A DNA stretch of 64,000 bases from Cryptosporangium aurantiacum (GTDB lineage Bacteria > Actinomycetota > Actinomycetes > Mycobacteriales > Cryptosporangiaceae): assembly GCF_900143005.1 (NCBI RefSeq), contig NZ_FRCS01000001.1:124001-188000 (forward strand). The letters run 5' to 3'. Shown here in pieces: positions 5,196 to 59,715 of the stretch. Positions within the stretch are counted from its first letter, which is position 1; every line of letters starts with the position of its first letter. The position numbers and the translations under genes are program-made. The notes under the pieces are model-generated. The model had not been told where the DNA came from and ran no database searches. It was given only the letters and a program-made list of their open reading frames with translations.

Positions 5196-6818
5196 ATGGC
5201 CGAGCTGACCATCTCCTCCGAGGAGATCCGCGGCGCGATCGAGCGTTACGTCTCTTCCTATTCACCCGAGGTCTCCCGCGAGGAGGTCGGTGTGGTCGCC
5301 GATACCGGCGACGGCATCGCCCACGTCGAGGGCCTCCCCTCGACGATGACCAACGAGCTGCTGCAGTTCGAGGACGGCACTCTCGGGATCGCGCTGAACC
5401 TCGAGGCGCGCGAGCTCGGCGTCATCCTCCTCGGCGACTACAGCGGCATCGAGGAGGGCCAGACGGTCCGCCGGACCGGGCAGATCCTCTCCGCGCCGGT
5501 CGGCGACGGCTTCCTCGGCCGGGTCGTGGACCCGCTGGGCAACCCGATCGACGGCAAGGGCGAGATCCAGGCTGAAGGCCGCCGGATCCTGGAGCTGCAG
5601 GCGCCCTCGGTGATGCAGCGTCAGCCGGTGAAGGAGCCGCTGCAGACCGGCATCAAGGCCATCGACGCGATGACCGCCATCGGCCGGGGCCAGCGGCAGC
5701 TGATCATCGGTGACCGCCAGACCGGCAAGACCGCGGTGGCGATCGACACGATCATCAACCAGAAGCAGAACTGGGAGAGCGGCGACCCGAAGAAGCAGGT
5801 CAAGTGCATCTACGTCGCGATCGGCCAGAAGGGCTCGACGATCGCTTCGGTGCGCGGCGCCCTCGAAGAGGCCGGCGCGATGGAGTACACGACGATCGTC
5901 GCGGCTCCGGCGTCCGACCCGGCCGGCTTCAAGTACATCGCGCCCTACACCGGCTCGGCCATCGGCCAGCACTGGATGTACAACGGCCAGCACGTCCTGA
6001 TCGTCTTCGACGACCTGACCAAGCAGGCCGAGGCCTACCGCGCGGTGTCGCTGCTGCTGCGGCGCCCGCCGGGCCGCGAGGCCTACCCGGGTGACGTCTT
6101 CTACCTGCACTCCCGGCTGCTCGAGCGCTGCGCGAAGCTGTCCGACGACATGGGCGGCGGCTCGATGACCGGTCTTCCGATCATCGAGACGAAGGCCAAC
6201 GACATCTCGGCCTACATCCCGACGAACGTCATCTCGATCACCGACGGCCAGGTCTTCCTCGAGACCGACCTGTTCAACGCCGGTGTCCGCCCGGCGATCA
6301 ACGTCGGTACCTCGGTCTCCCGGGTCGGTGGTTCGGCGCAGGTCCGCGCGATGCGGTCGGTGGCCGGCCGCCTGCGTCTGGACCTGGCCCAGTACCGCGA
6401 GCTGGAGGCGTTCTCCGCGTTCGGTTCGGACCTGGACCGCGCGTCCCGGAACCAGCTCGAGCGCGGTGCCCGGCTGGTCGAGCTGCTCAAGCAGCCGCAG
6501 TACTCGCCGTACCCGGTGCCGGAGCAGGTCGTCTCGGTGTGGGCGGGTACCACCGGCCAGCTCGACGAGATCCCGGTCGCCGACATCCGCCGGTTCGAGT
6601 CGGAGTTCCTCGACTTCGTCCGCCGGAACAAGTCCGAGATCCTCGCGACGATCGACAGCACCGGCAAGCTCGAGGACGACACCGTCTCCTCGCTCACCGA
6701 CGCGATCACCGAGTTCAAGCAGCAGTTCGAGGTCGGGGCGAGCCCCGAGGAGACCGTCGAGCCGCAGGGCGAGGAGTCGGCGAGCACCGTCACGCGACAC
6801 ACCGACCAGGAGGGCTGA
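5196..6818 (+). CDS. atpA: F0F1 ATP synthase subunit alpha
   Basis: This 540-residue subunit carries the non-catalytic nucleotide site P-loop GDRQTGKT (172-179) and the downstream alpha motif [18 protein letters not shown] chose ATG 5196 ([19 protein letters not shown]) because it matches the family N-terminus and is preceded by GAGATCGAGG. The frame stays open further upstream, but into non-conserved sequence overlapping the delta gene. The C-terminus has a 30-residue Glu/Thr-rich extension beyond the conserved helical domain, as in mycobacterial alpha subunits, where such an extension suppresses ATP hydrolysis. Whether it does so here is inference. Confidence 0.97.
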
Positions 6819-6821
6819 TCC

Positions 6822-9211
<2,390 letters not shown>

Positions 9212-39722: not shown

Positions 39723-39770
39723 AGCAGATTGCATTTAGGCGGGTGATAGCCCTTCCAAATGCAATCTGCT
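39723..39770. terminator. Bidirectional terminator-like long hairpin
   Basis: AGCAGATTGCATTT (39723-39736) and AAATGCAATCTGCT (39757-39770) are perfect 14-nt arms around a 20-nt loop. It lies between the convergent hydrolase and Scy-like genes. The arms are unusually A+T rich for the genome. It has the same loop length as the hairpin at 12910-12963. Confidence 0.65.
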
Positions 39771-39777
39771 TCCGGGG

Positions 39778-42700
39778 TCAGGCGGGCTTGCCGTCGCTGC
39801 GGTCGGCGCGCCAGGTGAGGTCGAGGGTCGGTCCGACGCCGACCGTTGCCCGGTCGTCGTCGACCAGGCCCAGCATCGACCCGGCTCGCGGCCGGTTCGG
39901 CCGGTCCCCGTCGCTGTTGGGTACCTCCTGCGATCCGGACGCCACCGGCCCGGACGCCGCCGGTGTACGCCCCGAGCCCCCGGTCGCTCCAGCCGCAGGT
40001 GCTCCAGCCGGAGGCACCGCAGCCGAGGTCGCCCCGGTGGTGGTCGCCCCAGCCGTGGGCGCTGCGGCCGTGGGCGGCGTGGGTGTGCGCGCCGCGCCCG
40101 TGGTCGCTCCACTCGTGGGCGCCGTGGGTGTGCGCGCCGCGTCCGTGGTCGCCCCAGCCGTGGGTGCTGCGGCCGTGGGCGACGTGGGGGCGGGGGTTGC
40201 TGTGGGTGGCGGGGGAGGGGGCAGCGGCGGGCGTGCCGGGGACGTGGGGACCGGGTTGGCGGCCAGCCGGGCGCCTAGCGTCTGGCGCGGCGGCCCCGGC
40301 TTCGGCGTCTCGGGCTTCGGCGCGCCGGAGTTACCGTTGCTGCTGTGCTTCGTCGCGTCGCCGCTCGGGGCGTCCGCCTCCGGCTGCTTTGCCTGCTGCA
40401 GTGGCAGCGTCCGGGGCCTGTCGCCGCCGACGGCGGACGTATCACCGCCCGGGGCAGGCTTGTGCGAGCCGGCGGTGGTCTGCTCCGCCTCGGTGAGGGT
40501 GGCGCTCCGGCCTGCCCACGCGGTGCCGCTGCGTGCGGCGAACGTGGCGCCGGGCTTCGGCGCAGCACCGTTCGCCGCCCCCGCGGACTCACGCCCGGCC
40601 GCGCTGCCGCCCGGGGAGGGAGCATCGCCGCCCGCCGAGCCACGTTCGGCGGCAGACGTGCTGGTTCGGGCGCTCGCCATGGTGCGCAGCGCGCCCGGGG
40701 TGGTCTCCTCGCCGGGGTCGGCGAACGTCGGCGCGGTGGGGGCCTTGTCCGTTCCGGTGGGCTCGGCCTTGTCGGCGCCGGCAGTCTGACGCGCGGTGAC
40801 GTTCTCGTGGGCCGCCGACTTCTCAGTCCCCGCGCTGCTCGCCCTGGCGCCCGCGTTGCCGCCGTCGGGCTTCGCGGTCCCCGCGGCGCGTAACTCGGCG
40901 CCAGGCTTCGCTGCGTCGGGTTTCGCCGCCTCGCCGGTCGGCGCGTCGAAGCCGGACTTCGCAGCGCCGGTGGTGCGCGAATCGGTGCCGGCCTTTTCGC
41001 CGTCGGGCTTCGCGGTCCCCGCGCGCGAGTCGGTGCCGCCCTTCTCGCCGTCGGGCTTCGCGGTCCCCGCGCGCGAGTCGGTGCCGGCCTTTTCGCCGTC
41101 GGGCTTCGCGGCCGTGCTGGCGCCGTTCTGCCCGGTGTCGGGCTTCGCCGCCTCGGCAGTCCGTGCCTCGTAGCCGGGCTTCGCAGCGCCGGTGGTGCGC
41201 GAGTCGGTGTCGGGCTTCGACGCTCCGGTGGTGCGTGCGTCGAAGCCGGGCTTCGCGGCCCCCGCGCGCGCGTCGGCGTCGCCCTTTTCGCCGTCGAGCG
41301 CCGCCTCGGCGGTGCGTGCCTCGTAGCCGGACTTCGCGCCCCCGGCGGGGCGGGCGTCGGGCTTCGCGCCCCCGGCGGGGCGGGCGTCGGGCTTCGCGCC
41401 CCCGGCGGGGCGGGCGTCGGGGCTCACGGCCTCGGTGGGGCGGGCGTCGGCGTCGGGCTTTGCCGTCTCGGCGGTGCGTGCTTCGGCGTCGGGCGCCGCC
41501 GAGGCGGTGCCCGCCTCCGGGGCGGCCTTCGCGGCGGTTGGGTCCGCGCTCGCCTCGTCGCTGGTGGCCACCTCGGCGGACGGCGCAGGCGGCGTCGCGT
41601 CCGACTGAGGGACAGCAGCCGTGACCGCGGACAAGTTCGCGAACAGACCTCCGCCGAGGCCGGACAGCGCGTCCTGCAGCCGGTTCATCTCACCGTTGAT
41701 CTGGTCGCGGCGCTCGATGAGCGCGGCGACCTCGCCGCGCAACCGCTCGGCCTCGCGACGAGCCCCGGCGACGACCTTCTCCGCTTCCTCGCGGGCGTTG
41801 CGCGTCGTGGTGTGCGCCTCGAGCCCGGCCTTCTCCTTGGTGTTCCGGGCGCGCAGCTCGGCGTCCCGCCGCATCGTCGCGCCCTGCGTCCTGGCGTCCT
41901 CGACGACCTGCTTGGCGCGGGTGCTCGCGTCGGCGGTGATGCGCTCCGCCTCGGCGATCGCTTCCTGGATCATGCGCTCGGCCCTGGCCGCGGCCTCCTC
42001 GGTCGCCGACCGGGACAGCTCCTCGCTCTCCGCGTGAACCCGCGCGGCGTACTCGTCGGCCTCGGTCGTCGCGGTGGTCGCGACCTGGGTGGCCTCGGAG
42101 AGCAGCTTGGAAGCCTTGGACTCCGCCTTCGAGACCAAGGCCGCAGCGGTGGCCTCCGCCTTCGCGGTGAGGTCGGCGGCTTTCTTCTCGGCCGTGGCCC
42201 GGAGCGTGTCGACCTCGCTGCGGACCCGCTTCGCGTGCTCGTCGGCGTCGCGCCGGGTCTTCGACGCGTAGCTGTCCGCCTCGCCGCGGACCTTCGTGCT
42301 GTGCTCGTCGGCGCTGCGCCTGGTCGTCTTCGCGTAGTCGTCGGCTTCCCTGGCGACCCGTTCGGCGTGGTCGTCGGCGGCCTTCATCGTCTCGGTCGCG
42401 AGCGCCTCGGCGGTGGACGTCGTCTCGGTCGCCTTCTGCTCGGCGGCCTCGATCAGCTCGTTCGCCTTGCGGCGCGCCACCATCTTGGCGCCGGCCACCG
42501 TGGTGGCGGCCTCCTGCTCGGCGACGTGCAGCTTCTCCTGGGCCTCGCGCAGCGCCTCGGCGGCTTCGTCCCGGTCGTCCTCGGCCTTCCGGGCGTGCTC
42601 CTCGGCCTGGGACTGGAGCGTGGTCGCCTTCTCCTGTGCGGTGCGGACGAGCGCGGCGGCCTTCTCCTCCGATTCCGCCAGCGTGCGGGTGGCCTCCGCC

Positions 42701-44802
42701 TCGGCGTCCGACCGGACCGTCGCCGCGGCGTCCTCGGCCTCGCGGGCGCGCCGGAACACGTCGGCGGTCGCCTCGGCGGCATCGGCGGCGGCTTGGGCCG
42801 CCTGCTCGTGCGCCTCGGTCAGCACGGCCTCGGCGCGCTGCTCGGCGTCGGCCTGCAGTGCCCGAGCCCGCTCCTCGGCGCCTGCCACCAGCGTCGCGGC
42901 CTTCTCCTCGCCGGCGCTGCGCACCTTTGCCGCGCGCCGCTCGGCGTCGGCGACCATGTCCTGGGCCCGCCGCTCGGCGGTGCCGACCAGGTCGCGCGCA
43001 CGGGCCTCGGCGACCGAGATGATCGTGCGGGCCCGCTCCTGCGCCTGGGTGACGGCGGTCGCCGCGGCATCGTCGGCCTCGCGGGTGACCTGCGCGGCCT
43101 GCTGCTCGGCCGCGTCGATCATGGTTTGGACCTGCTCGTCGGCCTGCGCGGTGTGCGCGGACGCCACACGCTCGGCCTCGGTGACGATCCGGGCCGCCTC
43201 CTCGGCGGCCTCGGTGGTGAGCGCGGTCCGCCTGGCCTCGGCCTCGGCGACCAGCTCGTCCGCCCGCCGCTGTGCCTCGGAGGTCAGGCGGGTCGCCACG
43301 GCGGTCGCGTCGGCGGTGACCCGCGTGGCCTCGGCGGTGGCCTCCTCGGTGAGCCTCGCCGCTTCCGCGGCTGCCTCGGAGGTGACCCGGGTGGCGGTCT
43401 CGTCGGCCTCGCGTCGGGTCGTCTTCGCGTAGTCGTCGGCTTCCCTGGCAACCCGTTCGGCGTGGTCGTCGGCCTTCCGGTTGGCCGCGACGACGTGCTC
43501 GTCCGCCTCGCGCCGGGTGGTGGCGGCGTACTCGTCGGCCGCTTCGTGGGTGGAGACCCGGTAGGCGTCGGCCTCCGCGCGGGTGGACGTCGCGTAGGTG
43601 TCGGCCTCACGGCGGGTGCTGGTCGAGTACTCCTCGGCGGCGAGCCGGACCGTGCTCTCGTGGTCGTCGGCCAGCCGGGCGACGCGCTCGGCGTGGTCGT
43701 CGGCCTCTCGGCGCGTGGTGGTCGAGTACTCGTCGGCGCCGGTGCGGGTCGCGGTCGCGTAGTCGTCGGCCTCGCGGGCGATGCTCTCGGCGTGGTTGTC
43801 GGCCTTCTTGATCGCCGCTGCGGCTGTCTTCTCCGCGTCCGCGATGCGCTGGTCGGCCTCGGCGAGCCGAGCCTCGACCTCCACGAGCAGCGCGTCGGCG
43901 CGCTCCCTGGCCTCCGCCTCGATCGTGTTGGCCAGCTCGCGGGCCTCGGCGGCCAGTTCCTCGGCCTGCTCCTCGGCAGCATGGACCGCGGCGGCCAGCC
44001 GCTCGTTCGCTGCGGTCGTCAGCTGGTTGGCATAGGCGTCCGCGTCGGTGCGGGTTCGCGAGGAGTAGGCGTCGGCCTCGCTGCGGGTGGACTCGGCGTA
44101 CTCGTCGGCCCCGCCGCGGACCTCCTCGGCGTACGCCTCCGCGTCGGCCGGGATCGCGGTGGCGCGCTCCTCGGCGTCCTGCAGGATGGCGTCCGCTCGA
44201 CGGCGGGCCTCGGCTTCGTTCTCGTCGATGATCTCCTGCGCGCGGGCGATCTCCTCGCGCAGCCCGATGAGGTGTTCGACGAGCTCACGCTCGGCCTCTT
44301 CGCGCTGCCGGGTCGCCTCGAGTTCGGCGTCGCGGATTAAACCGCGGGCGTCGCGGGCGGCGTCGTCGAGGACGCGGTGCGCGGCGGCCTCCGCCTCGGC
44401 AGCGGCGCGCTGGACGGTGTTGCGCGCGCCGACCAGCTCGTTCTGAGCGGTGGCGCGGATCTCGTTGGCCTCGGCCTCCGCCAGGTCGAGGATCTGCTGC
44501 ACGCGGGCACTGACCTCGGCGTGCGGGTTACGGACGGCGTACTCCAGCTGCTGCCGGAGGTGGTAGATCTCGCCACGATGCCGGTCGATCTCGGTGTGCA
44601 GTCGCTCGACCTGGGCGGCGTACGCGTCCGAACGCGCGTATGCGGCGTCGCGGTCCGACGCGACCGCGCTCACCTCGCCTTCCATGCGGCGCAGCGCGTC
44701 GTCGACCTGACGTCGGTCGTACCCGCGCAGCACCACCTCGAACGACGGCATAGGTTCGCCGCCGCTCACTGGGAGAAGGCCGTGCCCGTCCTCCTGCGAC
44801 AT
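39778..44802 (-). CDS. scy: Scy-type giant coiled-coil cytoskeletal protein
   Basis: The 1674-residue protein has a DivIVA-like N-terminus (PSFEVVLRGYDRRQVDDALRR). A coiled coil to about residue 1065 is built from 11-residue repeats, for example ADDYATATRTG, ADEYSTTTRRE, ADDHAERVARL, each opening with Ala-Asp/Glu. It ends EALIERRDQ-like helix and GGGLFANLS. The hendecad pattern is the hallmark of Streptomyces Scy, which organises the polarisome at hyphal tips with DivIVA and FilP. A roughly 600-residue repetitive Lys/Asp/Pro/Gly/Thr-rich tail follows, with tandem repeats and polyproline, making it longer than S. coelicolor Scy (about 1326 residues as I recall). A start at Met18 is possible. 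Confidence 0.85.
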   Translation of the reverse strand: MSQEDGHGLLPVSGGEPMPSFEVVLRGYDRRQVDDALRRMEGEVSAVASDRDAAYARSDAYAAQVERLHTEIDRHRGEIYHLRQQLEYAVRNPHAEVSARVQQILDLAEAEANEIRATAQNELVGARNTVQRAAAEAEAAAHRVLDDAARDARGLIRDAELEATRQREEAERELVEHLIGLREEIARAQEIIDENEAEARRRADAILQDAEERATAIPADAEAYAEEVRGGADEYAESTRSEADAYSSRTRTDADAYANQLTTAANERLAAAVHAAEEQAEELAAEARELANTIEAEARERADALLVEVEARLAEADQRIADAEKTAAAAIKKADNHAESIAREADDYATATRTGADEYSTTTRREADDHAERVARLADDHESTVRLAAEEYSTSTRREADTYATSTRAEADAYRVSTHEAADEYAATTRREADEHVVAANRKADDHAERVAREADDYAKTTRREADETATRVTSEAAAEAARLTEEATAEATRVTADATAVATRLTSEAQRRADELVAEAEARRTALTTEAAEEAARIVTEAERVASAHTAQADEQVQTMIDAAEQQAAQVTREADDAAATAVTQAQERARTIISVAEARARDLVGTAERRAQDMVADAERRAAKVRSAGEEKAATLVAGAEERARALQADAEQRAEAVLTEAHEQAAQAAADAAEATADVFRRAREAEDAAATVRSDAEAEATRTLAESEEKAAALVRTAQEKATTLQSQAEEHARKAEDDRDEAAEALREAQEKLHVAEQEAATTVAGAKMVARRKANELIEAAEQKATETTSTAEALATETMKAADDHAERVAREADDYAKTTRRSADEHSTKVRGEADSYASKTRRDADEHAKRVRSEVDTLRATAEKKAADLTAKAEATAAALVSKAESKASKLLSEATQVATTATTEADEYAARVHAESEELSRSATEEAAARAERMIQEAIAEAERITADASTRAKQVVEDARTQGATMRRDAELRARNTKEKAGLEAHTTTRNAREEAEKVVAGARREAERLRGEVAALIERRDQINGEMNRLQDALSGLGGGLFANLSAVTAAVPQSDATPPAPSAEVATSDEASADPTAAKAAPEAGTASAAPDAEARTAETAKPDADARPTEAVSPDARPAGGAKPDARPAGGAKPDARPAGGAKSGYEARTAEAALDGEKGDADARAGAAKPGFDARTTGASKPDTDSRTTGAAKPGYEARTAEAAKPDTGQNGASTAAKPDGEKAGTDSRAGTAKPDGEKGGTDSRAGTAKPDGEKAGTDSRTTGAAKSGFDAPTGEAAKPDAAKPGAELRAAGTAKPDGGNAGARASSAGTEKSAAHENVTARQTAGADKAEPTGTDKAPTAPTFADPGEETTPGALRTMASARTSTSAAERGSAGGDAPSPGGSAAGRESAGAANGAAPKPGATFAARSGTAWAGRSATLTEAEQTTAGSHKPAPGGDTSAVGGDRPRTLPLQQAKQPEADAPSGDATKHSSNGNSGAPKPETPKPGPPRQTLGARLAANPVPTSPARPPLPPPPPPTATPAPTSPTAAAPTAGATTDAARTPTAPTSGATTGAARTPTPPTAAAPTAGATTTGATSAAVPPAGAPAAGATGGSGRTPAASGPVASGSQEVPNSDGDRPNRPRAGSMLGLVDDDRATVGVGPTLDLTWRADRSDGKPA
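40979..41111. repeat. 48-bp tandem repeat in the Scy-like tail
   Basis: About 2.8 copies of a 48-bp unit, beginning near 40979, 41027 and 41075, encode the repeated sequence KPDGEKAGTDSRAGTA. The copies differ by one or two bases. The frame is kept, so copy number can change without breaking the gene. Confidence 0.8.
41341..41421. repeat. 30-bp perfect tandem repeat in the Scy-like tail
   Basis: Two identical 30-bp units (41341-41370, 41371-41400) and the first 21 bases of a third encode DARPAGGAKP in tandem. The perfect identity points to recent slippage or recombination. Confidence 0.85.
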
Positions 44803-45069: not shown

Positions 45070-46431
45070 TCAGCCTCGCCCGTTCGCGCTCGGCGCCTCG
45101 ACCGGCTCGGCCTTGGCCACCTCGGCGGCCTTCGCCACCGTGGCCGCCGCCGCGCCGCCGCCGACCAGGCCGGCCAGCATCTCGCGCAGCTGACCGAGCT
45201 GCGTGGTGATCGCGTCCCGCTGCGAGGTGAGCTCGGCGACCTGGCGCTTGGCCTGGGTCGTGTTGTGCTCGGCGTTCGCCTTGGCGTCCGACATCAGACG
45301 CTCGGACTCGGCACGCGCCTCGCTGACGGTCTTGTCGGCGAGCGCACGAGCCTTCTCGACGATGTCCTTGGCCTGAGCCTCGGCCGCCTTACGACGAGAC
45401 TCGGTGTGCGCCTCGACCTCGCGGGCACGGGTCTCGGCGACCCGGGCGCGCTGCTCGGCCTCGCCGACCAGCTTCTGGGTCTCGGCGACCGCAGCCGCGT
45501 GCCGCTGGGACTCCTCCTGCTCGGCCCGCTCGCGCCGCTCGGCCAGCTGGAGCTCGAGCTCCTGCAGGTCGTTGTCGCGCTTCTCGCGCGCCTCGGCCAG
45601 GATGCGGCTCGCCTCGCCCCGCTTCTGCTCGGCCTCGCGGGTGGCCTCGCTGCGCAGCTGCTCGGTCTCCTGCCGCACGGTGGTGCGCAGCTGCTCGGTC
45701 TCCGCCTTGACCTTGTTGCGGAGCTGCTCGGTCTCCTGCTTCGCCGCGGCCCGCAGCTGAGTGGCTTCCCGCTCGGCGGTGGCCTGCAGCTGAGCCACCT
45801 CGCGGTGCACCCGCGCCTTGAGCTCGGCCACCTCGTGGTCGGCGGTCGTGCGCGCCTGCCGGACCTCGCGGTCTGCGGTGGCGCGGTTGACCTCGACCTC
45901 GCGGTTGACCTCGTTGCGGATCTCGGACGCCTCGCGCTCGGCGCCCTCCTTGACCCCGGCCGCGTCGCGCTCGGCGGCGACCTTGACCGCCTGCGCCTCG
46001 GCACGCGCCTTCTCGGTCAGTTCGCGGGCCTGGAGGCGAGCAGCCGACAGCGTCTCCTCGGCCTTCTTCTCGGCCTCGGTGCGGTGCTCGTTCGCCTGCT
46101 CCTCGGCGAGCCGCAGCAGCTGCTCGACCCGGGTACCGAGGCCGGAGAGCGTCGGCTTCGAGTTCTCCTGGAGCTGCTTCTGCTGGCTGCGCATCTGCTG
46201 CTGCAGCGCGGTGAGCTGCTGCTCGACCGCGCGAACCCGGTGCTGGGCCTCAGCGAGCTTCTGCTCGGCCTCGGACTTGGCGCCCTGGTTCTGGGTCAGC
46301 TCGGTGTTGAGCCGCTGAAGGTGCTCGTTCACCTGGTGCCGGTCGTACCCGCGCAGCGCGATGGTGAAGCCCGGATCGGTGTTCGAAGAGTCGAAGAACG
46401 AGAGGTTGTTCTCGGTGGGGGTCGGCTGCAT
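45070..46431 (-). CDS. filP: FilP-type coiled-coil intermediate-filament-like protein
   Basis: From ATG 46431 the product is 453 residues. It opens with a DivIVA-like motif (FTIALRGYDRHQVNEHLQRL), then a long coiled coil with 11-residue periodicity (ADREVRQARTT, ADHEVAELKAR, VHREVAQLQAT, AEREATQLRAA). It ends in a short Ala/Pro-rich tail. FilP forms filaments that stiffen hyphal tips and binds Scy and DivIVA in Streptomyces. This protein is longer than S. coelicolor FilP (about 310 residues). It shares the RGYDRxQV opening and an RV-Q-L-LAE-ANE-R segment with its neighbour, so the two are probably ancient duplicates. An upstream ATG at 46464 is possible. Confidence 0.8.
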   Translation of the reverse strand: MQPTPTENNLSFFDSSNTDPGFTIALRGYDRHQVNEHLQRLNTELTQNQGAKSEAEQKLAEAQHRVRAVEQQLTALQQQMRSQQKQLQENSKPTLSGLGTRVEQLLRLAEEQANEHRTEAEKKAEETLSAARLQARELTEKARAEAQAVKVAAERDAAGVKEGAEREASEIRNEVNREVEVNRATADREVRQARTTADHEVAELKARVHREVAQLQATAEREATQLRAAAKQETEQLRNKVKAETEQLRTTVRQETEQLRSEATREAEQKRGEASRILAEAREKRDNDLQELELQLAERRERAEQEESQRHAAAVAETQKLVGEAEQRARVAETRAREVEAHTESRRKAAEAQAKDIVEKARALADKTVSEARAESERLMSDAKANAEHNTTQAKRQVAELTSQRDAITTQLGQLREMLAGLVGGGAAAATVAKAAEVAKAEPVEAPSANGRG

Positions 46432-46721
46432 GTCGCCCACTATCGCAGACCCTGATGGCCGCATCTAGCGAACCCTCTCTCACATTCGACGCGAAAATCC
46501 CAAGCGACACACCGTACGGCGGTTCGGCTGATCCGCGACTCAGCAGAACACCCCAGTGCGCGGGTGCCTCATGCGTTTCCGCTCACTGTGCGTGGTGTTT
46601 TCTGGACGCCTCGCCGCGATTGAATCGACGCAATGCCCCCAGTCGCCAGGCGCGGGGAAGCCGTGCGGCGGCCGGGCGGAAGCCGTGCGGCGGCGCGGCC
46701 GCCGGGCAGCCGCGGTGCGGC

Positions 46722-46811: not shown

Positions 46812-48143
46812 TCAGCGCGCGCGGAACCGGTTGATCGCGTCGATGTGCCGGCTCCGCTTTTCCTCGTCCCGCACGCCGAGACCCTCCTCCGGCGCGAGGC
46901 AGAGCACGCCGACCTTCCCCTGGTGAAGGTTCCGGTGGACGTCGAAGGCCGCCTGCCCCGTCTGCTCGAGCGGGTAGACCTTCGAGAGCGTCGGATGAAT
47001 ACGTCCGGAAGCAATCAGGTCATTTGCGAGGTAGGCCTCGCGGTAGTTCGCGAAATGCGACCCGATAATGCGCTTCAGGTTCATCCAGAGGTAACGGTTG
47101 TCGAACTGATGCAGATAACCGGACGTCGAGGCACAGGTAACGATCGTGCCGCCCTTCCGGGCCACGAACACACTCGCGCCGAAAGTCTCTCGGCCCGGGT
47201 GTTCGAACACGATGTCCGGGTCCTTACCGCCGGTCAGTTCCCGGATCCGCGCGCCGAAGCGGCGCCACTCCCGCGGATCCTGGGTGTTCTCGTCCTTCCA
47301 GAACTGGTAACCCTCGGCGTTCCGATCGATCACCAGGTCCGCACCCATCGAGCGGACGATGTCGGCCTTGTCCGGGCTGGACACGACGCAGACCGGGGTC
47401 GCGCCGGAGGCCAGCGCCAACTGGGTGGCGTACGAGCCGAGACCGCCGGACGCGCCCCAGATGAGCACGGTGTCGCCGAGCTTCATGCCGGCGCCGTTGT
47501 TGCTCACCAGCTGCCGGTACGCGGTCGAGTTGACCAGACCCGGGGAAGCGGCCTCCTCCCAGGACAGGTGGGTCGGCTTCGGCATCAGCTGGTTGGCCTT
47601 GACCAGCGCCAGATCGGCGAGCCCGCCGAAGTTCGTCTCGAAGCCCCAGATGCGCTGCTCGGGGTCGAGCATCGTGTCGTCGTGACCCTCGTGGCTCTCC
47701 AGCTCGACCGAGAGGCAGTGGGCGACGACCTCGTCGCCGACTTTCCACCGGTTCACGCCGGGACCGGTACGCAGCACGACGCCGGCCAGGTCGGAGCCGA
47801 CCACGTGGTAGGGCAGGTCGTGCCGCTTGGTCAGCGGCGAGAGCCGGCCGTACCGCTCGAGGAACCCGAACGTGGACACCGGTTCGAAGATCGACGTCCA
47901 GACGGTGTTGTAGTTGACCGCGGAGGCCATCACGGCCACCAGCGCCTCACCGGGGCCGAGCTCCGGGGTGGCGATCTCCTGGACGTGCAGCGACTCCCGG
48001 GGGTCCTTGTCGCGGGTGGACCGCCCGGCGAACATGTCTACCTCGTCCTTGCGGACCACGACACCGCGGTAGGACTCGGGCACCTCCAGCGCGCCTACGG
48101 CATCCAGCTCATCGGCAAGGATCGCGTCGAGAATCTGCTTCAC
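46812..48143 (-). CDS. ccr: Crotonyl-CoA carboxylase/reductase
   Basis: From GTG 48143 the enzyme has 443 residues, the usual Ccr length, with GGAGG 9 nt upstream. It is an MDR-fold NADPH enzyme (IWGASGGLGSYATQLAL is the nucleotide-binding loop). It reductively carboxylates crotonyl-CoA to ethylmalonyl-CoA. The CO2-holding residues described for the Kitasatospora setae enzyme (Asn81, Phe170, Glu171, His365) appear as Asn79, Phe168, Glu169 and His363, a constant offset of two, so carboxylation rather than simple reduction is expected. It defines the ethylmalonyl-CoA pathway and supplies extender units for polyketides. Confidence 0.95.
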   Translation of the reverse strand: MKQILDAILADELDAVGALEVPESYRGVVVRKDEVDMFAGRSTRDKDPRESLHVQEIATPELGPGEALVAVMASAVNYNTVWTSIFEPVSTFGFLERYGRLSPLTKRHDLPYHVVGSDLAGVVLRTGPGVNRWKVGDEVVAHCLSVELESHEGHDDTMLDPEQRIWGFETNFGGLADLALVKANQLMPKPTHLSWEEAASPGLVNSTAYRQLVSNNGAGMKLGDTVLIWGASGGLGSYATQLALASGATPVCVVSSPDKADIVRSMGADLVIDRNAEGYQFWKDENTQDPREWRRFGARIRELTGGKDPDIVFEHPGRETFGASVFVARKGGTIVTCASTSGYLHQFDNRYLWMNLKRIIGSHFANYREAYLANDLIASGRIHPTLSKVYPLEQTGQAAFDVHRNLHQGKVGVLCLAPEEGLGVRDEEKRSRHIDAINRFRAR

Positions 48144-48189
48144 GGGTCGGCGCCTCCAGATCGTCCTGCGGGGCTTGGGGTGGCCGATG

Positions 48190-48203
48190 TTACCCACCAG
48201 TAA
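48190..48203 (-). promoter_or_regulatory. TTACT-N4-GGTAA operator at ccr promoter
   Basis: Read on the minus strand the site is TTACTGGTGGGTAA, and its right end starts a TAACAT -10-like hexamer (48192-48187). It lies 47 bp before the ccr GTG. Confidence 0.6.
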
Positions 48204-48263
48204 TGATTCAGAAGACCGTCCTGTGACCCACTCCATCCGGCGAGCCCTGGTCAGTGCCCCTGG

Positions 48264-48692
48264 TCAGTGGCCTGGGCCGGGTTCCACCAGCTCGACGAGG
48301 ACGCCGCCAGCGTCCTTCGGGTGGACGAAGTTGATCCGCGAACCGGCCGTGCCGCGCCGCGGGGCGTCGTAGAGCAGGCGCAGCCCCTTGGCTCGCAGCT
48401 CCTCGCTGGTCTTCTCGATGTCGTCGACCGTGTACGCCATCTGCTGGATGCCGGGTCCGGATCGGTCCAGGAACTTGCCGATCGCCGAGTCGGGACGGAG
48501 CGGGGCCAGCAGCTGCACCCGTCCGCTCGTCGGGTCACCGTCGGCGGGCACCAGCATGGCCTCCCGGACGCCCTGCTCCTCGTTCACCTCTTCGTGTTCG
48601 GAGATCAGGCCGAACTTGTCGCGGTAGAACGCGAGTGCCTCGTCCAGATCCGGAACGGCGATACCGACGTGGTCGATCCGGCGAATGGCCAT
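48264..48692 (-). CDS. mce: Methylmalonyl-CoA epimerase
   Basis: The 142-residue glyoxalase-fold protein opens IRRIDHVGIAVPDLDEALAFYRDKFGL, with the metal-binding His in DHVGIAV. It ends GGVLVELVEPG with the metal/catalytic Glu. It interconverts (2R)- and (2S)-methylmalonyl-CoA, and in this pathway also ethylmalonyl-CoA stereoisomers. GGGGAG is 6 nt before ATG 48692. It is divergent from thiolase and 120 bp upstream of ccr on the same strand. The order mce-thiolase-meaB is conserved in Streptomyces. Confidence 0.93.
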   Translation of the reverse strand: MAIRRIDHVGIAVPDLDEALAFYRDKFGLISEHEEVNEEQGVREAMLVPADGDPTSGRVQLLAPLRPDSAIGKFLDRSGPGIQQMAYTVDDIEKTSEELRAKGLRLLYDAPRRGTAGSRINFVHPKDAGGVLVELVEPGPGH

Positions 48693-48797
48693 CGTTACTC
48701 CCCTTCGAGCGGCACGGAATGTTGCCCGCATAGTGGCCGCTGAAGGTACGTGAGCCATCCGCGGATGGCTGTGGCCTCTCTCACGGCACGATTGAAG

Positions 48798-48856: not shown

Positions 48857-50053
48857 ATGACTTCCGTGATCGTCAGCGGTGCACGTACCCCCATGGGACG
48901 GCTCCAAGGCTCGTTGAAGGATTTCTCCGCAGCCGATCTCGGCGGCGTGGCGATCAAGGCCGCGCTCGAGCGCGCCGGGGTCTCCCCCGAGCAGGTGCAG
49001 TACGTGATCATGGGGCAGGTGCTGCAGGCGGGCGCCGGCCAGAACCCGGCGCGTCCGGCCGCGGTCAAGGCGGGCATCCCGCTGACGGTTCCGGCGATCA
49101 CGATCAACAAGGTCTGCCTGTCGGGCGTCGACGCGATCGCGCTGGCCGACCAGCTGATCCGGGCCGGTGAGTTCGACATCGTCGTGGCCGGTGGCCAGGA
49201 GTCGATGACGAACGCGCCGCACCTGCTGCCGAAGTCGCGCGCCGGGTACAAGTACGGCTCGATCGAGGTGCTCGACTCGATGGCGTGGGACGGGTTGACC
49301 GACTCGTTCGAGCACATCGCGATGGGTGAGTCCACCGAGAAGTTCGCCGGTCAGGCGGGTCTGTCCCGCGCCGACCAGGACGCGTTCAGTGCGCGCAGCC
49401 ACCAGCGCGCGGCGGCGGCGGCGAAGAACGGGGTGTTCGACGCCGAGATCGCGGCGGTGGAGATCCCGCAGCGCAAGGGCGACCCGATCGTGTTCAGCGC
49501 GGACGAGGGCATCCGCCCCGACACCACGACCGAGAGCCTGGCGAAGCTGCGCCCGGCGTTCGACAAGGCCGGGACGATCACCGCGGGGTCCTCCTCGCAG
49601 ATCTCTGACGGTGCGGCCGCGGTCGTCGTGATGAGCAAGGCCAAGGCCGAGGAGCTCGGGCTGACCTGGATCGCCGAGATCGGCGCGCACGGCAACGTCG
49701 CGGGGCCGGACAACTCGCTGCTGCCGCAGCCGGCGAACGCGATCCAGCACGCGCTGGGTAAGGAAGGTCTGACGGTCGCCGACCTGGACCTGATCGAGAT
49801 CAACGAGGCGTTCGCCGCGGTCGGGGTCCACTCGGCGCGTGCGCTGGGGCTGTCCGAGGACGAGATCGACGCCAAGGTCAACGTCAACGGCGGGGCGATC
49901 GCGCTGGGCCACCCGATCGGGATGTCCGGTGCGCGGATCGCGCTGCACCTGGCGCTGGAGCTGCAGCGCCGCGGCGGCGGTGTCGGCGCGGCCGCCCTCT
50001 GCGGCGGCGGTGGCCAGGGTGACGCGCTCATCGTGCGCGTGCCGAAGGCCTGA
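48857..50053 (+). CDS. Acetyl-CoA C-acetyltransferase (thiolase)
   Basis: The 398-residue thiolase has acyl-enzyme Cys87 (NKVCLSG), EINEAFAAV, His352 in [11 protein letters not shown] and Cys382 in CGGGGQGDA. It condenses two acetyl-CoA to acetoacetyl-CoA, the entry to the ethylmalonyl-CoA and polyhydroxybutyrate routes, or works in reverse in fatty acid breakdown. TCGGAGG lies 8 nt before the ATG. Its orthologue sits between mce and meaB in Streptomyces and next to mce in Mycobacterium (fadA4). A hairpin follows the stop. Confidence 0.95.
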
Positions 50054-54693: not shown

Positions 54694-57600
54694 ATGGAGC
54701 GGCGTGCGCTGTCCGCCCGGCAGACGGAGGACTCGGGGCTGGAACCCGTCGTCGACCCCCAACTGGGGCTGTCGACCACCACCTCGGACGGTGATCTGCT
54801 CGCGTCGGTGGACGAGGTCGAGAACCACAAGGATGCGCTGATCACGAAGGCTGCAGCGAGCACCGACGACGAGCTGGTCGCCGCGCTGCTGCCGGTCTAC
54901 TTCCGGTACGTGCCCGCCGAGGAACTGCTGCACCGCTCGCCCGCCGACCTGGTCACGGCGACGGCCTCCCACCGGGGGCTGGGCGCGTCCAGAGCGCCCG
55001 GCGAGATGAAGCTCCGGGTGATCACTCCTCGTGGCGACGCCGGCTGGTGCGGCGGACATACGGTGATCGAGCTGGTGACCGACGACATGCCGTTCCTGGT
55101 CGACTCGGTCACCGCCGAGCTGGCCCGGCACGAGCTCGGCGTCCACCTGTTGGTGCACCCGCAGATGGTCGTGGTCCGTGACGCCGAGGGCACGCTGACC
55201 GAGGTCCGGCCGGTGGGCGACCCGGACGCGCCGGTCGCCGGCGAGGTCGTCGAATCGTGGATGCACATCGAGATCGACCGCCGGTCGCACCGGGGCGCCG
55301 AGGAGCGGCTGGAGATCGATCTCCAGCGGGTGCTCGCCGACGTCCGGGCCGCGGTGCTGGACTGGGACGAGATGCGAGCCCGCGCGTTGACGATCGCGGA
55401 CGGGCTGACCCACCGGACGCTGCCGGTGCCGGACAAGGACGTCACCGACGCGCGGGAGCTGCTGCGCTGGCTGGCCGACGACCACTTCACGTTCCTCGGC
55501 TACCGCGAGTACCGGCTGGAGGGCGACGGCGACGACCGCCGCCTGGTCGCGGCGCCTGGCACCGGGCTCGGCGTCCTGCGGGACGGGCCGAACCGTCCGC
55601 GGCGGCTGGCCGACATGCCGTCCGAGGTCCGGGCGAAGATCCTCGAGAAGCGCCTGCTGATCATCACGAAGGCGAACTCGCGGTCCACCGTCCACCGTCC
55701 CGCCTACCTCGACTACGTGGGCTTCAAGACGTTCGACGCGGACGGCAACGTGACCGGCGAGCGCCGCTTCCTCGGCCTGTTCTCGTCGGCCGCCTACCTG
55801 GACAGCGTCCGCGCGCTGCCGGTGATCTCGCGCAAGGTCGACGAGGTGCTGGCGCGCTCCGGGCTGTCCCGCAGCAGTCACTCCGGCAAGGACCTGCTGC
55901 AGATCCTCGAGACCTACCCGCGCGACGAGCTGTTCCAGATCGCCACCAGCGAGCTGTTCAACACGGTGATGGCCGTGCTGCGGCTCGGCGGGCGGCGTCG
56001 GCTGCGGTTGTTCGTCCGCCGGGACGCGTACGGACGGTTCATCTCGTGCGTCGTCTACCTCCCGCGGGACCGGTACACCACGCAGAACCGGCTGCGGATG
56101 CAGGACATCCTGATGGACGCCCTGCACGGCGTCGGCGTGGACTACACGACCCGGGTCACCGAGTCCGTGCTCGCCCGGGTCAAGTTCGTCGTCCGCACCG
56201 ACCCGGGCGCGTCGGTCGGCCCGATCGACGTCGACGCGCTCCAGCAGCGGCTCGCGGACGCCACCCGCAGCTGGGACGACGAGTTCGCCGCCGAGATCCG
56301 CCGGGAGATCGGCGAGGAGCAGGCCACCCGTCTGCTGCGCCGCTACGGCACCGCGTTCACCGCCGCGTACCAGGCCGAGCACTCGGCCGCCGAGGCCGTC
56401 GAGGACCTGTCCCGGATCGAGGTGCTGGAGGACGAGGGTGACCTCGGCGTCAGCCTCTACCGCACCGCCGATCGCGGGCTCCGGTTCACCGTCTACCGGC
56501 TCGGCGACGCGATGGCGCTGTCCGACGTCCTGCCGGTGTTGCACTCGCTCGGCGTCGAGGTCGTGGACGAACGTCCGTATCGGGTGCAGCGCACCGACGA
56601 CAAACCGACCTGGGTGTACGACTTCGGGCTGCGGGTCCGCTCGGGCACCGACGCGCCGCACGTCGGCGGGCCGGTCGGCCGCGCGGTCGCCGAGTCCGGT
56701 CCGCTCGCGGCGCCCGGCCCGGTGGACATCCGCCGGGTGCACTCCGCGATGGAGAACGCGTTCGCGGCCTGCTGGCGCGGCGAGTGCGAGGTGGACGGCT
56801 TCAACGCGCTCGTCGTCTCGGCCGGCCTGGCCTGGGACGAGGTCGTCGTCCTGCGCGCGTACGCGAAGTACCTCCGGCAGGCGGGCAGCCGCTGGTCGCA
56901 GGAGTACGTCGAGCGGGTGCTCGCCGAGCACCCGACGATCGCGCGGCAGTTGGTCGACCTGTTCACGGCCCGCTTCGACCCGCACTTCCGGGGTGACGCG
57001 GCGGCCCGCGAGGCCGCTTCCGACACGCTGAAGACGACGCTCACCGAGGCGCTGGACGCGGTGGAGAGCCTGGACGCCGACCGCATCCTGCGCAGCGTCC
57101 TGACGTTGATCACCGCGACGCTGCGCACGAACCACTTCCAGCGCGGCCGGACCGGCAGGCACAAGCCGTACCTGAGCTTCAAGATCGACCCCAGGGCGGT
57201 GCCCGACCTTCCGGCGCCGCGCCCGGCGTTCGAGATCTTCGTCTACTCGCCGCGCGTCGAGGGTGTCCACTTGCGGTTCGGCGCGGTGGCCCGCGGTGGC
57301 CTGCGCTGGTCCGACCGGCGCGAGGACTTCCGCACCGAGATCCTCGGCCTGGTCAAGGCGCAGATGGTCAAGAACACCGTGATCGTGCCGGTGGGCTCCA
57401 AGGGCGGGTTCGTGGTGAAGAACCCGCCGGTGGGTGGCGACCGCGACGCGCTGATGGCCGAGGGCATCGAGTGCTACCGCACGTTCATCCGCGGCCTGCT
57501 CGACGTCACCGACAACCTGCGCGACGGACACACGGTGGTGCCACCGGTCGACGTCGTCCGGCACGACGGCGACGACTCCTACCTGGTGGTCGCCGCCGAC

Positions 57601-59715
57601 AAGGGCACCGCGACGTTCTCCGACATCGCCAACGAGGTCGCGGCCGAGTACGGCTTCTGGCTCGGTGACGCGTTCGCGTCCGGCGGGTCGGTGGGCTACG
57701 ACCACAAGGCGATGGGCATCACCGCCCGCGGCGCCTGGGAATCGGTGAAACGGCACTTCCGCGAGCTGGGCCTGGACACCCAGAGCGAGGAGTTCACGGT
57801 CGTCGGCGTCGGCGACATGTCCGGCGACGTGTTCGGCAACGGCATGCTGCTCTCCGAGCACATCCGGCTGGTGGCCGCGTTCGACCACCGGCACATCTTC
57901 GTCGACCCGACGCCGGACGCTGCGGTCAGCTACGCCGAGCGTCGGCGGTTGTTCGAGCTGCCGCGCTCCAGCTGGGCCGATTACGACCGCACGCTGATCT
58001 CGGCGGGCGGCGGGGTCTTCCCCCGGACGGCGAAGGCGATCGACGTGACGCCGGAGATGCGGACGGCACTCGGGCTCGCCGACACCGTGACCCGGGTCAG
58101 CCCGGCAGAGCTGATGAAGTCGATCCTGCTCGCGCCCGTCGATCTGCTGTGGAACGGCGGCATCGGGACGTACGTCAAGGCGTCGGACGAGACGCACGCG
58201 GACGCCGGTGACAAGTCCAACGACGCGGTCCGGGTCGACGGGCGGCAGCTCCGCGTCCGGGTCGTGGGGGAGGGCGGCAACCTCGGCCTGACTCAGCGCG
58301 GCCGGATCGAGTACGCACTGGAGGGCGGCCGGGTCAACACCGACGCGATCGACAACTCCGCGGGCGTCGACACATCCGACCACGAGGTCAACATCAAGAT
58401 CCTGCTCGACCAGGCAGTGCACGCGGGTGAACTCACCACCGCAGCGCGGAACAGCCTGCTCGCCGAGATGACCGACGAGGTCGCCGAGCTGGTACTCCAC
58501 GACAACTACAGCCAGAACGAGGCCCTCGGCCTGGCCCGGCACCTCGCGCCCCGCCTGTTCGGCGTGCACCGGCGGCTGATGTCGGAGTTGGAGCGGTCCG
58601 GCCGGCTGAACCGCGCCTTGGAGTTCCTTCCAGACGACGAGACCGCGGACGCCCGTGCGGCAGCCGGTGGCGCGCTGACGTCGCCGGAGCTGTCGGTGCT
58701 GCTCGCGTACGTGAAGATCGTGCTGGCCGACGACATCCTCGCCAGCGCCGTGCCGGACGACCCGTGGTGCCGCCCGATCCTGCGGAACTACTTCCCGACG
58801 CCGTTGCGCGAGGAGTACGCGCGCCACGCCGAGACCCACCCGCTGCGCCGGGAGATCATCACGACCGCGGTGATCAACGAGGTCGTCAACCACGGCGGGA
58901 TCTCGTTCGTCTACCGCACGATGGAGGAGACCGGCGCGAGCCCGGCGGACGTCGTCCGGGCATACGCGGTGGTGCGGGACGTGTTCGGGCTCGGTGAGCT
59001 CTGGGGGGCCGCGAACGCGCTCGACGCGTCCCGGCCGGCGACCGCGCAGATCGCGGTGATGGTGCAGGCCCGGCGCGTGCTCGACCGGGGCGTGCGGTGG
59101 CTGCTGCAGAGTCGCAGCGGGACGATCGACGTCGAGGCGGAGGTCGCCCGGTTGCGTCCGGGGATGGCCGAGCTGACCGCCGAGATGGGCAGCCTGATGA
59201 TCGGCAGGGAAGCCGAGCGCTACCGGTCGTTCGCGGCGGAGCTGGCGGAAGAGGGTGTCCCGGCGGACCTCGCCGACCGGGTGACCGCGGCGCTTTACGG
59301 GTTCGGTCTGCTCGACGTCGTGGAGCTGGCGCACCACACCGAGCAGTCCGGACGCGAGCTGGCGACGCTGTACTACACGCTGTCCGAGCGGTTCCGGGTC
59401 GACGAGATGCTCGACCGGATCTCGGCGCTACCGCGGATCGACCGGTGGCAGGCGCTGGCGCGGCTGGCGCTGCGCTACGACCTCTACAGCGCGCTGGACA
59501 GCCTCACGCGGGAGGTGCTGCGGCGGGTGCCCGGCGACATCCCGGCCGACGAGCGGGTGAGCCGCTGGGCGGACGCGAACGCCGACAACATCAGCCGGGC
59601 TTTGACGACGTTGGGGCTGTTGGCGGAGGATGCGCCTTCGGATCTGGCGACGCTGACGGTGGTACTGCGGCAGATCCGGACGGTGGTGCGGGCGTCGTCC
59701 GCGCACTCCGACTGA
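54694..59715 (+). CDS. gdh: NAD-specific glutamate dehydrogenase, large (GDH180) type
   Basis: The 1673-residue protein belongs to the 180-kDa class of NAD-dependent glutamate dehydrogenases (S. clavuligerus, Mycobacterium). Long regulatory N-terminal regions precede a catalytic core with FGAVARGGLRWSDRREDFRTEI, VKAQMVKNTVIVPVGSKGGFVVK, and GVGDMSGDVFGNGML in the Rossmann part. It converts glutamate and NAD to 2-oxoglutarate and ammonium, mainly for glutamate catabolism, in the cytosol. GAGGGAG lies 7 nt before the ATG. In mycobacteria GarA inhibits this enzyme; garA is not in this window. Confidence 0.96.
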   Translation: MERRALSARQTEDSGLEPVVDPQLGLSTTTSDGDLLASVDEVENHKDALITKAAASTDDELVAALLPVYFRYVPAEELLHRSPADLVTATASHRGLGASRAPGEMKLRVITPRGDAGWCGGHTVIELVTDDMPFLVDSVTAELARHELGVHLLVHPQMVVVRDAEGTLTEVRPVGDPDAPVAGEVVESWMHIEIDRRSHRGAEERLEIDLQRVLADVRAAVLDWDEMRARALTIADGLTHRTLPVPDKDVTDARELLRWLADDHFTFLGYREYRLEGDGDDRRLVAAPGTGLGVLRDGPNRPRRLADMPSEVRAKILEKRLLIITKANSRSTVHRPAYLDYVGFKTFDADGNVTGERRFLGLFSSAAYLDSVRALPVISRKVDEVLARSGLSRSSHSGKDLLQILETYPRDELFQIATSELFNTVMAVLRLGGRRRLRLFVRRDAYGRFISCVVYLPRDRYTTQNRLRMQDILMDALHGVGVDYTTRVTESVLARVKFVVRTDPGASVGPIDVDALQQRLADATRSWDDEFAAEIRREIGEEQATRLLRRYGTAFTAAYQAEHSAAEAVEDLSRIEVLEDEGDLGVSLYRTADRGLRFTVYRLGDAMALSDVLPVLHSLGVEVVDERPYRVQRTDDKPTWVYDFGLRVRSGTDAPHVGGPVGRAVAESGPLAAPGPVDIRRVHSAMENAFAACWRGECEVDGFNALVVSAGLAWDEVVVLRAYAKYLRQAGSRWSQEYVERVLAEHPTIARQLVDLFTARFDPHFRGDAAAREAASDTLKTTLTEALDAVESLDADRILRSVLTLITATLRTNHFQRGRTGRHKPYLSFKIDPRAVPDLPAPRPAFEIFVYSPRVEGVHLRFGAVARGGLRWSDRREDFRTEILGLVKAQMVKNTVIVPVGSKGGFVVKNPPVGGDRDALMAEGIECYRTFIRGLLDVTDNLRDGHTVVPPVDVVRHDGDDSYLVVAADKGTATFSDIANEVAAEYGFWLGDAFASGGSVGYDHKAMGITARGAWESVKRHFRELGLDTQSEEFTVVGVGDMSGDVFGNGMLLSEHIRLVAAFDHRHIFVDPTPDAAVSYAERRRLFELPRSSWADYDRTLISAGGGVFPRTAKAIDVTPEMRTALGLADTVTRVSPAELMKSILLAPVDLLWNGGIGTYVKASDETHADAGDKSNDAVRVDGRQLRVRVVGEGGNLGLTQRGRIEYALEGGRVNTDAIDNSAGVDTSDHEVNIKILLDQAVHAGELTTAARNSLLAEMTDEVAELVLHDNYSQNEALGLARHLAPRLFGVHRRLMSELERSGRLNRALEFLPDDETADARAAAGGALTSPELSVLLAYVKIVLADDILASAVPDDPWCRPILRNYFPTPLREEYARHAETHPLRREIITTAVINEVVNHGGISFVYRTMEETGASPADVVRAYAVVRDVFGLGELWGAANALDASRPATAQIAVMVQARRVLDRGVRWLLQSRSGTIDVEAEVARLRPGMAELTAEMGSLMIGREAERYRSFAAELAEEGVPADLADRVTAALYGFGLLDVVELAHHTEQSGRELATLYYTLSERFRVDEMLDRISALPRIDRWQALARLALRYDLYSALDSLTREVLRRVPGDIPADERVSRWADANADNISRALTTLGLLAEDAPSDLATLTVVLRQIRTVVRASSAHSD

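Follow-up and report, generated by a model that had tools for sequence, protein, structure and literature searches.

What might several hundred residues of disordered, fast-changing sequence be doing at the end of a bacterial coiled-coil rod? The question is raised by a stretch of 64,000 nucleotides of Cryptosporangium aurantiacum (contig NZ_FRCS01000001.1, positions 124,001 to 188,000; hereafter the window), in which an open frame on the minus strand (39778 to 44802, ATG start, stop at 39778) encodes a giant coiled-coil protein of 1674 residues that belongs to the FilP/Scy group of DivIVA-like proteins. A first-pass annotation made from the sequence alone had given its coordinates and frame correctly, and the frame is open in all four genomes of the genus. 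The giant consists of a DivIVA-like N-terminal domain, a long rod and a low-complexity tail, all coordinates below referring to the minus strand unless marked otherwise. The main point beyond the earlier annotation is that two motifs are kept inside this otherwise hypervariable tail, and a strictly kept C-terminal peptide on a fast-changing tail suggests a tether for docking rather than mere padding.

The tail occupies residues 1061 to 1674 (39781 to 41622), and its 614 residues, with tandem repeats and a polyproline tract (PPLPPPPPP, residues 1525 to 1533; 40204 to 40230), agree with the roughly 600 repetitive residues noticed before. It is made up mainly of Ala, Pro, Gly and Thr (24, 13, 13 and 12%), not of Lys and Asp (5 and 7%) as had been stated, is near-neutral and contains only 5.7% of the residues ILVMFWYC; all four tails of the genus are likewise near-neutral and low in order-promoting residues. 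AlphaFold2, run on the tail with a four-row alignment, returned a mean predicted local distance difference test score (pLDDT) of 43.5, with 552 of the 614 residues below 50, consistent with disorder, and the sole predicted helix (1509 to 1514) falls inside the first of the two kept motifs. No Pfam family matched the tail up to E 1. Measured from the rod-end cassette, the tails are 614 residues long in the window, 190 in G001, 789 in G002 and 436 in G003, and each of the four frames is open through to the same C terminus. Tandem repeats differ from member to member. Those of the window include, among others, a 30-bp array of 4.1 copies (41328 to 41450) with three tandem copies of PDARPAGGAK (residues 1128 to 1157; 41332 to 41421) and a 48-bp array of 2.9 copies (40975 to 41111, 94% matches) in which a 16-residue unit of the type KPDGEKAGTDSRAGTA occurs three times in tandem (residues 1233 to 1280; 40963 to 41106). 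G002 carries SAPAA, ETGDSQSGKP and PAAGH, and by the criterion used for these two members G001 and G003 show no tandem repeats in the tail.

Within this drifting sequence, motif 1 (PRQTLGARLAA, residues 1505 to 1515; 40258 to 40290) is identical in all four genus members, and the C-terminal motif (SMLGLVDDDRATVGVGPTLDLTWRADRSD, residues 1642 to 1670; 39793 to 39879) is likewise found in all four. The four tails have 20 four-residue words in common, every one of them within motif 1 or the C-terminal motif. The longest shared words reach 10 residues (none of 12 was found), compared with at most 3 to 4 in composition shuffles (n = 500), and the overlapping words assemble to PRQTLGARLAA and VGPTLDLTWRA, of 11 residues each. 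The spacing around these motifs varies, from 110 to 445 residues between the rod end and motif 1 and from 31 to 317 residues between motif 1 and the C-terminal motif. Identity between members is 19 to 39% in linker 1, with a ratio of nonsynonymous to synonymous substitution rates (dN/dS) of 0.49 to 1.12, and 26 to 54% in linker 2 (dN/dS, 0.25 to 1.09; only 13 residues could be aligned where G001 is involved), figures that rest on unsure alignments and should be read with caution. The 26-residue block from motif 1 onward is 58 to 88% identical (dN/dS, 0.07 to 0.31), the C-terminal segment 69 to 85% (0.20 to 0.55), the rod 72 to 86% (0.18 to 0.43) and the N terminus 87 to 96% (0.08 to 0.16). By dN/dS, the motif 1 block is thus under stronger constraint than the rod. 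A profile of the C-terminal motif matched all four genus members at E 4e-24 or better; in the window's genome the giant gene scored E 4e-24 and the next best candidate E 0.07. No match below E 1e-4 was obtained in the other 294 of the 298 genomes of the order, a search of limited sensitivity in which at most 23 candidates were scored per genome, so that within the genomes searched the motif is restricted to the genus. Matches up to E 0.1 in 87 other genomes, the best at 3.6e-4, were taken as chance and offer the motif no wider home.

The C-terminal linker of FtsZ is disordered, varies in length and sequence and ends in a conserved binding peptide with known partners. Because the giant's tail similarly combines a drifting linker with kept peptides, we consider it about an even chance (roughly 0.5) that it serves as a disordered tether with which the rod displays docking peptides at its end. 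The analogy is one of working only, since FtsZ has a GTPase core where the giant has a coiled-coil rod, and the partners are known for FtsZ. In this scheme, the DivIVA-like domain and the rod would dimerize and assemble at growing hyphal tips, as we infer from relatives. The rod, mainly a hendecad coiled coil of some 145 nm, would end in the rod-end cassette, and two disordered chains of 190 to 790 residues each would project from the C-terminal end of the dimer. The tether would change in sequence and length, in part through tandem duplications that preserve the frame, but keep the two peptides and give them the reach with which the rod might capture or hold a putative partner, be it a tip, wall-synthesis, division or chromosome-anchoring protein. 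Scy and FilP rods are reported to form dimers and higher assemblies, and Scy to act at hyphal tips and to interact with DivIVA, FilP and ParA (PMC3718342, PMC6599971, PMC4255298, PMC9858780). The two motifs offer two handles, of 11 and about 27 residues, for finding the partner of a polarity scaffold.

Several observations weigh against a docking tether. The motifs are carried by four genomes of a single genus, and their conservation may partly reflect a short divergence (synonymous divergence of 0.26 to 0.56 in the N terminus and rod). With its flanks included, the C-terminal segment is under much the same constraint as the rod, and not a stronger one, and the linker ratios rest on uncertain alignments. 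In G004, which alone represents another genus of the family among the genomes searched, the C-terminal motif was not found. Furthermore, neither the tail nor this motif has a convincing match in Pfam or among solved structures; candidates for the motif in the PDB appeared only at E 0.07 or worse (CD320) and were rejected.

Other explanations of the tail start from the same data. It might be a disordered brush or spacer whose bulk and flexibility alone keep rods apart or form a crowded or condensed phase at the tip. The first-pass annotation had offered a disordered brush or scaffold; its disorder agrees with the prediction for the window's tail, with the near-neutral, order-poor composition of all four tails and with their drift in length and sequence over most of their course. 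Yet a brush needs no exact sequence, whereas both motifs are kept in all four members and hold every shared word, and a four-fold range in length (190 to 789 residues) sits badly with a spacer, so that we regard a brush alone as unlikely. Alternatively, the kept peptides might bind the same or the next rod, end to end, laterally or in an autoinhibitory manner, like the tails of intermediate-filament-like proteins. S. coelicolor FilP has been modelled as associating tail to tail via its C-terminal region (PMC6599971), Scy has been proposed to form a rope via two dimerization domains (PMC3718342), and the rod-end cassette recurs in the family. However, FilP and Scy are reported to assemble although the tails of their Streptomyces-type versions (genomes of genus g53 in family f33, each of which exceeds the NCBIfam cut-off for Scy, and presumably Streptomyces) measure only 12 to 69 residues. 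A long variable linker would also seem, as a matter of argument, a poor means of setting the register between rods, and self-assembly through the tail therefore strikes us as improbable. The differing tandem repeats and the linker dN/dS values would also suit a linker that is harmless GC-rich repeat drift, held in frame because the C terminus behind it matters. While the linker sequence may indeed be neutral, at least 190 tail residues are kept in all four genomes and drift leaves the motifs unexplained, which makes neutral expansion a very unlikely account of the tail as a whole. Finally, that a frameshift, chimera or repeat misassembly created the tail, as repeats, the 44 contigs of the window's genome and the 5 N in the G003 gene might invite one to think, is next to impossible given four separate assemblies that reach the same peptide in frame, that of G002 as a single contig, and a high third-position GC content of 0.82 to 0.89 in the tails, even if the exact copy number of repeats could still be off.

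Is such a tail peculiar to this genus? For a wider survey of 47 proteins, the tail was taken to start after the final 40-residue stretch that lacks Pro and contains no more than one Gly, a crude rule that gives 682 rather than 614 residues for the window and inflates L170. Left out were loci L093 and L096, in which the distal frame could not be located, and the broken Scy frame of G077 at L169. This last gene (5427 to 9161, minus strand of its contig) is a Streptomyces-type scy with its last 67 profile positions in another frame, reflecting a frameshift that is either real or from assembly. By the crude rule, tails measured 434 residues in G004, 288 in G027, 180 in G014, 115 in one genome of family f5, 94 to 162 in five genomes of f15 and 56 to 183 at six loci of Micromonospora, Asanoa, Pilimelia and Actinocatenispora. 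Streptomyces-type Scy proteins have tails of 26 to 69 residues (n = 9), in keeping with the view of the first-pass annotation that such a tail is no feature of S. coelicolor Scy. Single genes at other loci with ccr or mce (see below) have tails down to 0, and related loci together span 0 to 813 residues. A long tail is thus neither universal nor unique in the group, and the longest tails seen at this locus belong to the genus, except that G004 (434) exceeds G001 (190). In Pseudonocardia, the same rule gives up to 673 tail residues for DivIVA-like paralogues without ccr or mce nearby (L109 to L163). Two tails contain short sequences of their own: that of G004 (L038, 4880 to 8692, plus strand) holds DEETTVLAK, and that of G027 (L040, 10159 to 12903, plus strand) holds five AGETQ[IL]I repeats. 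These resemble phosphothreonine/FHA-type sites, which would suggest kinase-regulated docking.

Endings are alike within lineages although the tails differ. VPAQQ[ST]R ends all six Streptomyces-type FilP proteins listed, and GK[SP][ST] stands near the end of the nine Streptomyces-type Scy proteins listed (by eye). RAADG ends all five frames found for DivIVA-like paralogues in Actinomycetospora (L115, L116, L120, L121, L126), whose tails are variable and of low complexity, and SRSG ends 12 of 22 Pseudonocardia paralogues. These endings were chosen by eye among related species without a null model, and the other 10 Pseudonocardia paralogues end otherwise, which again counts against docking peptides. 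Because of the likeness within lineages, we tentatively suggest, at clearly less than even odds, that actinobacterial Scy/FilP-type scaffolds as a class combine a rod with a fast-evolving disordered tether and a lineage-specific terminal docking peptide. The genus would then be the extreme case, with a giant rod that is built of a repeat unlike the Streptomyces one and probably lengthened independently, a tether of up to 790 residues and two peptides. If so, exchange of the terminal peptide on an unchanged rod would be the way in which polarity scaffolds are rewired. Among the open-licence papers that the searches listed, no title or abstract opening dealt with long tails of Scy/FilP proteins or with kept end peptides there; the Scy/FilP work that we met in this way concerns Streptomyces, whose type has the short tails of 12 to 69 residues.

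The assignment of the giant to the FilP/Scy group is supported by its N-terminal motif, rod, rod-end segment and locus. The annotation had called it Scy-like, which holds for the group and not for Scy in the strict sense. Against the NCBIfam model for Scy, NF041483, the giant scored 50.2 bits, far below the cut-off of 1040, which was exceeded in 21 of 246 genomes of the class, all of them f33/g53. It also lacks the whole-rod 51-residue periodicity, a feature that is not one-sided given that 220-residue windows of the giant often favour 51/14, and it has a 25-residue extension where Scy is described as truncated right before RGYD (PMC9858780). Two other traits are present: filP adjacency, the FilP-like gene at 45070 to 46464 adjoining, and the proximity to crotonyl-CoA reductase and methylmalonyl-CoA epimerase genes described as FilP/Scy-group context (PMC9858780). 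Set beside Scy, then, the giant shares the DivIVA-like motif, a hendecad rod of about 1,000 residues, filP and mce as neighbours and a related rod-end cassette; it differs in its period (3.653 versus 3.640 to 3.642), in the 25 residues before RGYD, in its tail (614 versus 26 to 69 residues) and in a locus with filP/scy order swapped and ccr present. With FilP, as represented by the Streptomyces type and by the window's neighbour, it shares a segment before RGYD, the DivIVA-like motif and a related rod-end cassette, and with the Streptomyces type also a kept C-terminal peptide. FilP, in contrast, extends only some 300 to 475 residues from the GYD motif, has tails of 12 to 70 residues and lies across a supported split of the N-terminal tree. 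DivIVA/Wag31 (NF050102) resembles the giant in N-terminal motif and coiled coil, the giant scoring 65 bits against a cut-off of 260, with the best stretch (529 to 625) in the rod.

In the tree, a split with support 96/94 places the giant with the distal proteins, Streptomyces-type Scy and some single genes, and the window's FilP-like neighbour with the proximal proteins, Streptomyces-type FilP and other single genes. The joint clade of distal proteins and Scy reached only 90/57. Neither holding Streptomyces-type Scy and FilP together, as after a duplication within the Streptomyces type (approximately unbiased test, p-AU 0.068), nor holding FilP with the proximal proteins (p-AU 0.37) was rejected. 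The tree was built from some 170 N-terminal residues, in an alignment with 60 rows and 167 columns, and several of its long branches were flagged. Its rows were hand-picked, with eight Streptomyces-type Scy proteins added; it lacks near-duplicates (e.g., L044, L045, L093, L096, L097, L102, L123, L131 and L136) as well as distal frames missed by the motif search (those in L046 and L175, for instance). By the reversed gene order, the giant might correspond in position to Streptomyces FilP and the neighbour to Scy; the BLAST bits of the giant's N terminus (75 to 81 with Streptomyces-type FilP, 52 to 69 with Scy) favour this, and the tree, which places the giant with Scy, speaks against it.

The rod-end cassette (residues 1015 to 1060; 41623 to 41760) provides a further link. 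A profile built from the genus matched 5 of 10 Streptomyces-type Scy and 9 of 10 FilP frames at E 0.0009 to 0.009, always near the rod ends of those frames. In reverse, a Scy rod-end profile matched two of the four genus members (E 0.0006 and 0.005), the window's copy not among them, and some other DivIVA-like relatives and a few unclassified frames score as well. Profiles were used since a regular expression proved too strict, with hits in 20 of 115 family frames and in 8 of 7167 others. The matches are weak support for relatedness, strengthened by their position; the rod ends of the genus and of the Streptomyces type appear related, while the intervening repeats may have expanded independently. 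A cassette of roughly the form L..L..RRD.I...L..LREML..L recurs at the coiled-coil ends of FilP/Scy proteins and could serve, besides the N-terminal motif, as a family marker.

The rod itself (residues 97 to 1014; 41761 to 44514) consists mostly of hendecads with interspersed heptads. Including the cassette it comprises about 960 residues, 26% of the rod being Ala, and is predicted to span about 145 nm if fully helical. Hendecads in Scy and FilP have been published (PMC9858780), and the perfect, consecutive units claimed in dozens for the giant, nearly all beginning with Ala-Asp or Ala-Glu, proved real as hendecads, neither perfect nor so numerous in tandem. The longest A[DE]x9 run has 14 units (residues 323 to 476; 43375 to 43836), followed by runs of 7 (787 to 863), 5 (210 to 264) and 4 (543 to 586), and heptads intervene. 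A dynamic-programming register over residues 81 to 1065 found 71 hendecads and 26 heptads, compared with a mean of 48 and a maximum of 58 hendecads in composition shuffles (n = 100). Its longest unbroken run is 21 hendecads (437 to 667; at most 5 in the 100 shuffles), and a run of 8 already starts at residue 90, well before the onset near residue 330 suggested earlier. The weak twist of the filament, which had been proposed to be right-handed, agrees with this, as only a very slight supercoil is expected of a hendecad rod (PMC9858780). In 220-residue windows, hydrophobic periodicity peaked at 51/14 or 11/3, not at 3.5, and 51/14 stood above 11/3 in 6 of the 8 windows lying mostly in the rod, a measure that separates the two poorly. 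For the rod taken as a whole, a period of 3.653 fits best, and power at 51/14 was 4.3, compared with 78 to 127 in four Streptomyces-type Scy proteins, whose whole-rod period of 3.640 to 3.642 corresponds to 51/14. Identity within the giant's rod at lags of 55, 99 and 110, all multiples of 11 (0.211, 0.196 and 0.190), was higher than at 51, 102 and 153 (0.171, 0.174 and 0.123; baseline 0.123), a long-range pattern reversed in Streptomyces-type Scy, with peaks at 102 and 153.

The DivIVA-like domain (residues 20 to 92; 44527 to 44745) comprises a short helix, the RGYDRRQVD loop and a long helix, AlphaFold2 placing the helices at 21 to 27 and 30 to 90, so that one helix is predicted within the segment before RGYD. 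The sequence RGYDRRQVDD (residues 26 to 35) has Q where the published GYDxxEVD-type consensus has E. The domain scored 19.1 bits (E 0.0013) against Pfam DivIVA, below the cut-off of 28, and its profile had no match among solved structures at E 0.01. A single-sequence AlphaFold2 model of residues 1 to 500 (mean pLDDT 76.6) becomes helical at residue 21 and is interrupted at the GYD loop and near 91 to 95, 239 to 241 and 401 to 407, leaving rod helices at 96 to 238, 242 to 400 and 408 to 499.

Upstream of the giant lie the FilP-like neighbour (45070 to 46464, 464 residues with a 33-residue tail, in the tree on the same side as Streptomyces-type FilP) and three locus markers: a crotonyl-CoA carboxylase/reductase gene (ccr, 46812 to 48236; TIGR01751, 607 bits), a methylmalonyl-CoA epimerase gene (mce, 48264 to 48758; TIGR03081, 143 bits) and, on the plus strand, a gene for an acetyl-CoA acetyltransferase-type thiolase (atoB, 48857 to 50053; Pfam thiolase; TIGR01930, 452 bits). 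The order atoB-mce-ccr-filP-scy-hydrolase is identical in the four genus genomes and in G004. An N-terminal profile found 79 loci in the named collection, 27 of them with ccr or mce nearby, among which are Micromonospora, Asanoa, Pilimelia and Actinocatenispora as well as metagenome-assembled genomes labelled Geodermatophilaceae and Frankiales. All 10 Streptomyces-type loci read have atoB-mce-scy-filP, the filP/scy order being reversed relative to the window, and no ccr was reported at them within the 12 to 16 kb fetched. The giant is also relevant to how old the Scy/FilP pair is. One source describes Scy as exclusive to Streptomycetales (PMC9858780), and another reports undoubted Scy orthologues, nearly all next to filP, in wider actinobacteria (PMC4255298); our locus data fit the latter better, without settling the matter.

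Long open frames are common on the antisense strand of GC-rich genes, and those across the giant gene (39743 to 40789 and 41812 to 44340, plus strand, among others; up to 842 residues) were taken as spurious. A second frame of almost equal size in the window (54694 to 59715, plus strand; 1673 residues) is an ordinary large NAD-specific glutamate dehydrogenase (Pfam Bac_GDH_CD and companion domains).

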